DNA from: Sphingobacteriales bacterium
GTDB lineage: Bacteria > Bacteroidota > Bacteroidia > Chitinophagales > CAIOSU01
Assembly (NCBI GenBank): GCA_027486795.1
Contig: JAIXOI010000048.1
Coordinates: 124,001 to 188,000 of the forward strand
Direction: 5' to 3'
Length of the DNA: 64,000 nt
The notes below the pieces were generated by a model. The model was not told the origin of the DNA, ran no database searches, and was given only the letters and a program-made list of their open reading frames with translations. Made by a program: the position numbers and the translations under genes. This document shows positions 37,361 through 47,558 of the stretch, in pieces. Positions within the stretch are counted from its first letter, which is position 1; each line of letters begins with the position of its first letter.

Positions 37361-37409
37361 ATGTACGATTTTAGAAGTACGATGTACGACGTACGAAGTA
37401 CAATGTGCC
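37361..37409. repeat. Heptamer tandem array (GTACGAA word)
   Basis: Degenerate copies of GTACGAT/GTACGAA/GTACAAT after the proA stop, ending TGTGCC; same ending as the array at 37506. Confidence 0.85.
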
Positions 37410-37448
37410 TTGATGTTAAGATTATATAGCGCTAATCGACTACGAACC

Positions 37449-37483
37449 ATCGACCAACGGAGTTTTGTCGTCCAGGAAGTGAG
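37449..37483. repeat. 35-base direct repeat, copy 1
   Basis: Matches 37593-37627 with one mismatch (C/T). The core CGACCAACGGAGTTTTGTCG is itself bounded by a CGAC/GTCG inverted repeat. Confidence 0.85.
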
Positions 37484-37505
37484 TATTGGTGTGAGTTGTG
37501 GAAAG

Positions 37506-37540
37506 ATGTACAAAGTACAATGTACAAGGTACGATGTGCC
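37506..37540. repeat. Heptamer tandem array (GTACAAA word)
   Basis: TGTACAA, AGTACAA, TGTACAA, GGTACGA in tandem, ending TGTGCC. Confidence 0.85.
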
Positions 37541-44736: not shown

Positions 44737-45059
44737 GGGTGTAAAGGTAGTTTTTTTAGTCGATGGTCCATAGTCCATGGACGATGGATTTTAGTTACGA
44801 GTTACGATTTGCGAGTTACGGGTTGCGAGTTTGTAAAATAGCTAAATCCATTGCACTAATCCTTGCATTTAATCTTCAGCATTAACGATTGTAACACCGA
44901 TAACAATAAACCCCATTTTAAATACCTGACACTTTTAAAGTAAACAGCCCCTCCGCTCTGGTGATTTTTATGTTTCCCTTGGTCTGAAAACCTGACCGAT
45001 TTACGATTAAAATCACTTAAATTGCAAATCAATATTTTTGATAAAACAAAGGGTTATTT
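44737..45059. other. 323-base intergenic region upstream of lpxD
   Basis: Divergent promoter region for lpxD and the gene at 45060. It carries a heptamer array (44792-44831) next to a small inverted repeat GGTCCATAGTCCATGGACG. Nothing else recognisable. Confidence 0.55.
44792..44831. repeat. Heptamer tandem array (GTTACGA word)
   Basis: AGTTACG, AGTTACG, ATTTGCG, AGTTACG, GGTTGCG in a strict 7-base register. Confidence 0.85.
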
Positions 45060-45626
45060 ATGAATAACGGAAAGGCAAAAGTGGAAGATGTTGGAAGTGG
45101 CATCATGGTTGAAGTGCCGTCTAAAAAGAACTGGTTTTTATTGATTTTCGGAACCTTTTGGCTATTTGGCTGGGCATTTGGGGCAATAATGGTACTTGGT
45201 ACTTTGGGTATTTTTAGCGGAGCAACTGGTGTTGGAGGCCCATTTATGTTTATGGTATTTTGGTTGTGTGCATGGACAGCGGGTGGACTTTTTATCATGA
45301 CCACGATACTTTGGGGTTACTTTGGCAAAGAAAAATTGATGGCCAGCCAAGGGGAGGTTGTTTTTGAAAAAACTGTTTTCAATATCGGTATCAAAAAGAG
45401 ATTGAATGCCAGTTCGGTGACCAATTTTAGGATACAACATATAGATGATAGCTTGTTTGGAGGGAGCCGCATGGCCATTTACGGCTTAGGACCGGGCAGA
45501 ATTAAGTTTGACTACGGATTTAAAACCTATTCATTTGGACTAGCACTCAACGAAGCCGAGGCCCAATATCTAGTTGATTTGCTCAACAAAAAAATAGTTA
45601 AACAATCAGGCAATCCAATTTCCTAA
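45060..45626 (+). CDS. Membrane protein with PH-like C-terminal part, unknown
   Basis: 188 residues. Two hydrophobic segments at about 25-50 and 61-87 form a hairpin, followed by a soluble beta-rich domain of about 95 residues (KLMASQGEVVFEKTVFNIGI, RMAIYGLGPGRIKFDYG, YSFGLALNEAEAQYLVDLLN) that resembles the pleckstrin-like domains of small bacterial membrane proteins. No functional motif. It stands alone; the 414-base gap after it is repeat-rich. Confidence 0.7.
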   Translation: MNNGKAKVEDVGSGIMVEVPSKKNWFLLIFGTFWLFGWAFGAIMVLGTLGIFSGATGVGGPFMFMVFWLCAWTAGGLFIMTTILWGYFGKEKLMASQGEVVFEKTVFNIGIKKRLNASSVTNFRIQHIDDSLFGGSRMAIYGLGPGRIKFDYGFKTYSFGLALNEAEAQYLVDLLNKKIVKQSGNPIS

Positions 45627-45727
45627 CAATGCTCCGGCCTACTCTTTCTTGCTTCCAGCTAGGGCAAGCAGGGCAGAAGCTATGCATGAACAAACATCTG
45701 CACTCGCAGTTGTTTTTAGTAAAGATT

Positions 45728-45827
45728 CATTAACCCTGAGCCTTCGCCTTACCCTAAATAAAACTTGCAGTATGTGAAGAGCTGGAAGCTCTCAGTTATT
45801 TTATCCTCGCTGGAAGCGAGGACAAGT
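45728..45827. repeat. 100-base direct repeat with two hairpins, copy 1
   Basis: 97 of 100 bases match copy 2. It contains GAGCTGGAAGCTC and CCTCGCTGGAAGCGAGG, two hairpins sharing the loop region CTGGAAG. Confidence 0.93.
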
Positions 45828-45860
45828 TGGCTGTATGCGTCGTCGCTTATCGCGAGGATG

Positions 45861-45960
45861 CATTAACCCTGAGCCTTCACCTTACCCGAAATAAAACTTG
45901 CAGTATGTGGAGAGCTGGAAGCTCTCAGTTATTTTATCCTCGCTGGAAGCGAGGACAAGT
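45861..45960. repeat. 100-base direct repeat with two hairpins, copy 2
   Basis: Differs from copy 1 by three substitutions only; 33 bases separate the copies. Confidence 0.93.
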
Positions 45961-46027
45961 ATCCCGAATCACTTAAACAGTTTGTGGTAGTGCCAAAACA
46001 TTTATAACACCTCATTGTTACAAAACG

Positions 46028-46035
46028 TAATTTTG
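46028..46035 (+). promoter_or_regulatory. -7 box for crtD (TAatTTTG)
   Basis: TAATTTTG ends five bases before the ATG, which implies a leaderless or almost leaderless mRNA. Confidence 0.6.
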
Positions 46036-46040
46036 CACCT

Positions 46041-47558
46041 ATGCAGCAAACAGCAGCAATTATCGGTTCTGGTATGGCAGGCTTAGCAGCAGCTATTAGG
46101 CTTGCCTTACAGGGTTATGCCGTTACTGTTTTTGAAGCCAACAGCTACCCTGGTGGTAAAGTAACTGAGCTGCATGCCAAGGGCTACCGCTTTGATGCGG
46201 GGCCGTCGTTGTTTACACTACCACAGTTGGTAGATGAGTTGTTTGAGCTTGCAGGCAAAGACCCTCGGCAATATTTCCAATACAAGCAATTGCCTGTAAT
46301 TACAAAATACTTTTACCCCGACGGCACAATTATCAATGCTTATAAAGAGCCTATTGATTTTGCCCAAGAAATTCAGCGCCAAACGGGCGAGCCTACCGAG
46401 AGCGTGTTGCGTTTTTTGGCCAAAAGCAAAGAACTGTATGACCTTACGGCACACATCTTTCTATTTGCATCGCTGCACCAATGGAGTACTTACCTCAACT
46501 TAAAAGCCCTTAAAACCAGCCTAAAACTGCACAAATTGGATGCCTTCCGTAGTGTGGACAGGGCCAATAGGGGTTGGTTTAAGGATGCGCGGGTGGTGCA
46601 GTTATTTAACCGCTACGCAACATACAATGGCAGCGACCCTTATCAAGCCCCTGCCACACTCAATATCATTCCGCATTTGGAGCATAACATTGGCGCATAC
46701 TTGGCCGAAGGTGGTATGCATAGTGTTACCAAGGCGCTATACCAATTGGCACAAGAGGTTGGGGTGAAGTTTGAATTTGATTGTGCGGTGGATAAGATAG
46801 TGGTTGAGGGTAAGCGAGCTGCCAGTTGTGAAGTGATGTACAAGGTACAAAGTACAAAGTACGATGGAGGAAAGAAAGTCGTTTTGGGTGGTTGCGACAT
46901 AATAGTTAGCAATATGGATGTGGTGAACACTTACCGCAAACTATTGCCCGACCTGAAAGAGCCCACCCGTATCACGCACCAACCACGAAGCAGTTCGGCC
47001 ATGATATTTTATTGGGGTGTTAAAAGGCAGTTTCCAAAGCTGGATGTGCACAACATACTATTTACAAAGGACTATCCAGCTGAGTTTAAGGCCTTGTTTA
47101 CGGAAGGAACCGTTTACAACGACCCAACAACGTACCTATACATAAGCAGTAAAGAAAACCCTACGGATGCGCCAGAGGGTTGCGAAAACTGGTTTGTAAT
47201 GGTAAACGCCCCTAACAATACCGGCCAAGATTGGGAGGCCTTGCGCCAAACTACCCGAAAAAACATCCTCGCCAAACTGAAAGCTAAACTCGGCGAAGAT
47301 ATTGAGCCCCTTATTGAAACCGAAGATGTGCTAGACCCTGTGCTGATTGAGCAGCGCACCAGCTCATACCAAGGCTCACTGTACGGCAGCAGCAGCAACA
47401 ATATGTTTGCCGCTTTTTTGCGCCACGCCAATTACAGCAGTCAGCTTGGCAATCTGTATTTTTGTGGCGGCAGTGCCCACCCCGGCGGGGGCATACCGCT
47501 GTGCTTGCTTTCGGGCCGCATAGTTGCCGACCTTGTAAAACGCCGTCATCAGCCATGA
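46041..47558 (+). CDS. crtD: CrtI/CrtD-family carotenoid desaturase
   Basis: 505 residues. The N-terminal FAD-binding AIIGSGMAGLAAAIRLALQGY and VFEANSYPGGKV, and the C-terminal FCGGSAHPGGGIPLCLLSGR, are diagnostic of phytoene-desaturase-type enzymes. Coupling to cruF suggests the CrtD subtype, which introduces the 3,4 double bond of 1-hydroxy carotenoids (as in saproxanthin- or flexixanthin-type pigments); CrtI itself is the alternative. Odd point: residues 266-276 (MYKVQSTKYDG) are encoded by a heptamer array (46836-46862) of the type otherwise found between genes. The frame stays open through it. The stop overlaps the cruF start (ATGA). Confidence 0.85.
   Translation: MQQTAAIIGSGMAGLAAAIRLALQGYAVTVFEANSYPGGKVTELHAKGYRFDAGPSLFTLPQLVDELFELAGKDPRQYFQYKQLPVITKYFYPDGTIINAYKEPIDFAQEIQRQTGEPTESVLRFLAKSKELYDLTAHIFLFASLHQWSTYLNLKALKTSLKLHKLDAFRSVDRANRGWFKDARVVQLFNRYATYNGSDPYQAPATLNIIPHLEHNIGAYLAEGGMHSVTKALYQLAQEVGVKFEFDCAVDKIVVEGKRAASCEVMYKVQSTKYDGGKKVVLGGCDIIVSNMDVVNTYRKLLPDLKEPTRITHQPRSSSAMIFYWGVKRQFPKLDVHNILFTKDYPAEFKALFTEGTVYNDPTTYLYISSKENPTDAPEGCENWFVMVNAPNNTGQDWEALRQTTRKNILAKLKAKLGEDIEPLIETEDVLDPVLIEQRTSSYQGSLYGSSSNNMFAAFLRHANYSSQLGNLYFCGGSAHPGGGIPLCLLSGRIVADLVKRRHQP
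46836..46862. repeat. Heptamer array inside crtD coding sequence
   Basis: TGTACAA, GGTACAA, AGTACAA, AGTACGA in frame, matching the intergenic array at 37506-37540. Confidence 0.85.

Follow-up and report, generated by a model that had tools for sequence, protein, structure and literature searches.

An inverted four-hairpin repeat of a Sphingobacteriales genome, probably a miniature of a RAYT-encoding element

The window analysed here (the whole 64 kb stretch of DNA from a Sphingobacteriales bacterium) holds, between two open reading frames (ORFs), a hairpin repeat that recurs in the same genome and also flanks a RAYT gene there. The upstream ORF (45060-45626, plus strand; 188 amino acids) had no Pfam match and the downstream ORF (46041-47558, plus strand; 505 amino acids) was of the FAD amine-oxidase type (PF01593); both are given for context. 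Positions 45728-45827 and 45861-45960 formed a direct repeat with 97 of 100 bases identical and a spacing of 33 bases, and GAGCTGGAAGCTC and CCTCGCTGGAAGCGAGG were present in both copies, confirming an earlier note on this DNA that had described a 100-base direct repeat with two same-loop hairpins per copy. The longer repeat was 130 bp (114 of 130 identical, period 133). GCTGGAAGC, commonly the apex of both hairpins, was counted 5 times in the window against 0.49 expected, and at least 5 were seen in 0 of 100 shuffles. The degraded third piece that the earlier note placed near 45650 was a single 9-mer match (45651-45659, minus strand), and a covariance-model search of the genome found nothing near 45650 at E ≤ 0.01; a third copy was thus unsupported and was rejected. 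No known RNA was found at E ≤ 0.1 in an Rfam scan of 44800-46600.

The actual unit was approximately 130 bp and carried four hairpins in two inverted ends, each with an inner and an outer hairpin that had a common apex and lay about 10 nucleotides (nt) apart. Within a half-unit the inner hairpin (e.g., GCGAGC-TGGAA-GCTCGC) was followed by GTTA and about 5 nt, the outer hairpin (TCCTCGC-TGGAA-GCGAGGA) and a tail. The inner hairpins of the two half-units faced each other, and the ends of the better copies read ACTNGTCC...GGACNAGT. The hairpins had a stem of 8 with a loop of 3, or a stem of 7 with a loop of 5, compared with 8-9 bp and 4-5 in the CGTC REP superfamily. The first copy in the window (45699-45830, plus strand, recognized from the 130-bp repeat) had an intact right half at 45771-45830 (C18:169771-169830, E 2.7e-16 in the covariance model), with its inner hairpin at 45778-45792 (AGAGC-TGGAA-GCTCT) and its outer hairpin at 45804-45822 (TCCTCGC-TGGAA-GCGAGGA), both on the plus strand; its left half (45699-45758) was decayed, unlike that of the second copy. 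In the second copy, a left half-unit was found on the minus strand at 45832-45891 (C18:169832-169891, E 4.8e-8; a pattern search found the same), showing that this copy is a full four-hairpin palindrome. The outer hairpin of this half, at about 45840-45858, was mutated. The right half-unit lay on the plus strand at 45904-45963 (C18:169904-169963, E 3.3e-17), with an inner hairpin at 45910-45926 (GAGAGC-TGGAA-GCTCTC) and an outer hairpin at 45937-45955 (TCCTCGC-TGGAA-GCGAGGA), likewise on the plus strand.

In the half-unit alignment, 95.3% of 405 cells paired and two-sided changes occurred in 33 cells against 10.8 (0 of 500 shuffles), indicating that both hairpins are maintained. Two other covariation measures were weak: pairs changed on both sides numbered 5 against 3.5 (24 of 500 shuffles), and further pair types 12 against 11.3 (214 of 500 shuffles). 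The two ends of a unit were unlike, the left ends carrying CGTC before the outer hairpin and the right ends mostly T/AGTC. One end of each type was seen in 18 of 19 rows when 9.7 were expected (p about 1.5e-4); these types were defined after looking at the data, and the independent rows are fewer than 19, because L012 and L021 represent a single unit and three further pairs (L011/L193, L004/L194 and L016/L195) look orthologous. The alignment of 27 half-units, whose ends read ACTNGTCC, showed no conserved GTAG tag (GT[AG]G) at the base of the hairpin, and the proposed likeness to canonical REPs was not borne out in this respect. In single-strand folding, two of the units (L168 and L007) formed one long hairpin (z -9.4 and -7.5); the window unit folded mostly into separate hairpins (z -4.6 for the top strand and -2.8 for the bottom strand).

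The earlier note had suggested searching the genome for further copies, and these were found. A BLAST search of the own genome (G000) with a 101-mer gave 21 matches, and GAGCTGGAAGCTC matched exactly 13 times, compared with 0 for the reversed pattern. A covariance model was trained on 27 half-units, obtained from 32 pattern rows after 5 were removed by hand (two chance matches, one reverse reading and two without an intact inner hairpin). It returned 33 matches at E ≤ 0.01 and 29 at E ≤ 2.5e-7; 27 of these 29 strong half-units were the training set and two were new (C11:138555 and C29:3757). Together they made up 15 loci, the RAYT locus and the window included. By simple ORF picking, 13 of the 14 non-RAYT loci overlapped no ORF of at least 90 amino acids; the locus on C52 overlapped one of 95 amino acids. 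A repeat like CGTCATTGCGAA... was seen beside or replacing the unit in the left flank of this C52 locus (L020) and at G002:C505 (L185), which may resemble the CGTC-tagged REPs.

A Y1_Tnp search of the own genome gave 6 matches above the cut-off. The cognate RAYT (C30:84961-85512, 184 amino acids) was flanked by a left end at 84884-84943 (17 nt upstream of the start codon) and a right end at 85524-85583 (8 nt downstream of the stop codon), so the earlier suggestion to look for a RAYT gene flanked by similar hairpins met with success. Two additional half-units were present at the same locus. The protein carried NHLH and YIHENP, the HUH and Y---NP catalytic motifs of RAYT/TnpAREP (class 2), and scored 24.9 bits against the class 1 IS200 model NF033573 (cut-off 55). 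H61, H63, Y147, N151 and P152 were invariant among 10 RAYT proteins; a profile of 10 such proteins had TnpArep 4er8 as its first match, and phmmer with a single RAYT against the PDB found no match. A second own RAYT (L026, G000:C18:17843-18358) was flanked by different apex-sharing twins (GGATTNCAAATCC), and a 73-nt query from its flank matched 12 times in the own genome. In one relative (G003:C2:82090-82139, L193), an L026-type repeat directly adjoins a unit of the present family, and part of this repeat was found at that place in G000. A third RAYT (L027, G000:C38:5812-6339) had flanking repeats that were not strict twins, and two stretches of these folded no more stably than shuffled sequences did (z 1.05 and -0.52). 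The twin arrangement was therefore true of 2 of 3 own RAYTs.

Sixty genomes were searched with the covariance model at E ≤ 1e-4. Matches were found in G000 (29), G001 (29), G002 (14), G003 (24), G007 (12) and G004 (1, weak); 54 of the 60 genomes had none. The identity of the cognate RAYT was 100% in G000, 97% in G003, 79% in G001 and 49% in G007, and G000, G001 and G003 had 24-29 half-units each. The RAYTs of G004, with its single weak half-unit match, were distant only (best about 42%). At 7 of the 12 G001 loci tested, both flanks were present in another genome of the genus with no model match between them; six were aligned and one (L167) was judged by coordinates, and they are site differences rather than exact empty sites. 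The RAYT locus measured 143 nt in G004 where G000 has 1004, and the G001 RAYT unit (73% over 708 bp) sat on the opposite side of the same neighbouring gene. At the window site, about 100 nt in G004 replaced 44751-45994, G002 had a single unit, and G003 had one unit and a degenerate half. The near-identical pair in the window therefore points to a local tandem duplication, and the repeated insertion proposed in the earlier note was rejected, the third piece not having been recovered either.

Hairpins of this kind could also be transcription terminators or mRNA-stability hairpins kept at gene ends, with a RAYT nearby by chance. Most of the loci were indeed placed downstream of a gene (7 convergent, 7 co-directional and 1 divergent), and two of the three terminator-like sites in 45300-46200 were the inner hairpins, with 1.0 expected. 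However, the inverted four-hairpin units have two unlike ends, the same ends surround the RAYT gene, and near relatives differ in which sites are occupied. We regard this explanation as very unlikely; terminator function alone was rejected on the analyses of locus orientation and terminator sites, and use as a terminator may be a later by-product of the repeat.

In five genomes, a RAYT ORF with approximately 50-150 nt on each side aligned as a copied unit of about 660-750 bp with sharp edges. The clearest pair was in G008 (752 bp, 99.87% identical), and the others were in G029 (659 bp, 93.6%), G056 (692 bp, 92.8%), G025 (680 bp, 86.5%) and G011 (704 bp, 80.1%). The edges fell at or just outside the terminal hairpins, and the adjoining 60 nt were only 0.20-0.38 identical; the value of 0.38 came from the left flank in G029, where other short repeats were in common. 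No target duplication was seen at the edges of the copied units. Proteins from four of these genomes (all but G008) were scored against the curated RAYT model NF047646 and all passed. The motif was SHVH in G008, G056 and G025, and NH[IV]H in G011 and G029. G007 and G011 had 20 and 10 RAYT matches respectively, many of them partial, as if RAYT-type genes had multiplied in these genomes.

Apex-sharing hairpin pairs were also frequent near other RAYT genes. A strict twin was defined as two perfect hairpins with a stem of at least 5, the same 3 apex pairs and loop on either strand, with one mismatch allowed, and a distance of 3-20 nt; the thresholds were chosen after the own family had been seen, and own and genus loci were counted throughout. 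The two strict twins of the window were the inner and outer hairpin pairs reported above. Of 32 RAYT loci, 7 had strict twins (shuffles: 0.05), as did 4 of 20 in a second set that covered whole stretches including genes (shuffles: 0.03). Among 40 named loci, 11 had a twin within 800 nt against 0.025, compared with 2 further away, and the twin density in this set was 16 in 61,233 bp near the RAYT and 4 in 120,844 bp far from it. A different twin rule applied to all 52 loci gave 11 against 0.2 expected. These sets overlap, L250 repeating L119, and L251 and L252 being the same places as L098 and L099. Within 800 nt, 17 of 83 RAYT hits had a strict twin (L098, L099 and L250 omitted as repeats, hits of fewer than 130 query residues dropped). 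All 28 twins at most 250 nt from a RAYT were 8-14 nt apart when 3-20 nt were permitted; in 15 the longer stem was the one farther from the gene, in 8 it was the nearer one, and in 5 the stems were equal. The apexes varied widely (CTGGAAG, GATTnCAAATC, CGTTTGCAACG, CACTGnAAGTG, AGCGTCnCGCT, AAGCTGnGCTT). Some twin matches were in records of Deltaproteobacteria, Syntrophales and Chthoniobacter; one AT-rich twin with a distance of 20 nt (L290) may be chance. A Deltaproteobacteria record (L273) and a Syntrophales record (L283) had a RAYT locus in common, with the same twins and 89% identity over 1423 bp; in the frame tried, the translation of L283 was interrupted by stops.

The computed architecture, covariation, co-occurrence with RAYT genes, site differences and sharply bounded copies suggest that the repeat is probably a non-autonomous, REPIN-like mobile palindrome and a miniature of a RAYT-encoding element. 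By analogy with IS200/IS605 and TnpAREP, the RAYT, a Y1 HUH nuclease, would recognize the hairpins in single-stranded DNA, e.g., on the lagging strand. Both hairpins of an end may be read through their shared apex, and would perhaps seat two protomers. The RAYT would then nick next to the tag that lies beyond the outer hairpin and join the ends into a new site, leaving no target duplication. TnpAREP cleaves single-stranded REP between C and T in the available text of PMC8266576, and cleavage of this kind would suit the CT of the ACT end. With a left end on one side of the RAYT gene and a right end on the other, this reaction could also copy the gene together with its ends. The window pair would have been produced later by the local duplication that the site comparison supports.

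Several results weigh against this reading. The C30 RAYT scored 79.8 bits against NF047646, below the cut-off of 80 (two other own RAYTs reached 87.7 and 84.6 bits). G002 had 14 half-units, yet no RAYT match was found in its 530-contig assembly. No base-exact empty sites were found for the G001 units; the orthologous intergenic stretches were too diverged. Among the five genomes with copied units, strict twins were present solely in G008, the others having single or imperfect hairpins, and they were absent at 66 of the 83 RAYT hits, showing that the rule is not universal. By coordinate reading, the corresponding flank in G003 or G002 was accompanied by a unit or half-unit for 10 of the 13 own loci tested, indicating that most copies are old. 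In-frame stops were present in copied units (one each in L115, L243 and L103, two each in L102 and L231b), meaning that several copies cannot have been moved by the protein they encode. These last two results would also suit an ordinary, vertically kept REP/RAYT pair with a domesticated RAYT, the copied units then coming from recombination or assembly error, as would the location of the two G008 copies within 5 kb on one contig and the published view of RAYTs in the available text of PMC8049555 and PMC6006769. This account is possible, although we consider it less probable than a mobile element: in five genomes the copies stop at or just outside the terminal hairpins on both sides and the sequences beyond are dissimilar, which is the outcome given by movement of a defined unit.

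The inner and outer apex variants of the own family were uncoupled copy by copy in the 27-row alignment. This too speaks against a mobile palindrome read through its apexes, and it would be expected if hairpin duplication or gene conversion had produced the shared apex as a side effect, with no role in recognition. However, many unrelated families combine unlike lower stems with a common apex, the spacing is held within 8-14 nt, and group-3 TnpAREP enzymes read loop bases and require certain ones in the available text of PMC8266576. We therefore think a mere by-product rather unlikely.

Compared with known systems, the unit resembles REPIN/BIME elements in being inverted, dispersed, intergenic and palindromic, with REP-like hairpins and a cognate RAYT flanked by the same repeat. 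It differs in having no GTAG tag, two hairpins per half instead of one, and tens rather than hundreds of copies. The REP/BIME-like organization with a RAYT proposed in the earlier note thus holds for the dispersed inverted unit and its RAYT, but the same-loop hairpin pair is not itself a BIME pair, because both hairpins lie in one half-unit in the same orientation and the inverted pair is the whole 130-bp unit. In the accessible part of PMC8266576, the inverted REP of one system was inactive. TnpAY1 subclass 2.6, which corresponds to Bertels RAYT group 5 of Bacteroidetes and has "atypical secondary structures", is described in the available text of Quentin et al. (2018, PMC6006769) by NH[LIV]H, WQ, YIH[QN]NP, SS and a median of 179 amino acids. 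The own RAYT is likewise a Y1 HUH protein of about this size with Y---NP and flanks that recur in the genome: NHLH, SS, its 184 amino acids and its flanking structures fit, and its WE and YIHENP are one letter off each. Unlike in that text, the structures were resolved here as apex-sharing twins for some of the families, and RAYT units were seen to occur as copies. The nearest precedent in the texts consulted is the TIRtrons (Di Nocera et al., 2013, PMC3733652), with a RAYT-like gene between long inverted repeats, some of them "double palindromic TIRs" and some dispersed in the genome. The C30 RAYT lies between such long terminal inverted repeats; the accessible part of PMC3733652 gives no shared-apex rule or copied gene unit. 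Quentin et al. assigned 20 of 26 TIRYTs to subclass 2.1 (PMC6006769, available text). The CGTC before the outer hairpin of the left end recalls the CGTC-tagged REPs, which are reported without an associated transposase gene in the same part of PMC3733652. IS200/IS605 elements are similar in their Y1 HUH protein, subterminal hairpins and compact unit, and the copied RAYT units show no visible target duplication; however, the present proteins carry Y---NP where class 1 transposases have Y---Q, and their model scores place them with RAYT rather than IS200. Neither apex-sharing twins nor copied RAYT units were found described in the literature searched, which did not include most subscription papers, Bertels et al. 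(2017) or ISfinder.

An unrelated short repeat based on GTACAAA was also present in the window at 46838-46862 (inside the 505-amino-acid ORF) and 37384-37532, with 6 matches against 0.06 expected. A stretch of it of about 33 bp had 31 further matches among those listed in G000-G003.

For the Bacteroidota more widely, there is about an even chance that many RAYTs are living insertion sequences that transpose with their hairpin ends rather than domesticated genes present in single copy, that the REP-like repeats are internally deleted miniatures of them, and that in some of the families each end encodes the specificity twice, in an apex shared by the twins and changing as one with the RAYT. If so, the Bacteroidota RAYT elements would be a link between the IS200/IS605 and REP/RAYT systems. 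No evidence of mobility was reported for class 2 genes in the available text of PMC6006769; sharp-edged copies of a RAYT with its hairpin ends would change this view for the group and would open the transition from insertion sequence to REP system to testing. Under the twin-apex rule, the "atypical secondary structures" would become a defined and searchable motif in part of the families, and the rule would predict where the specificity of each RAYT lies.
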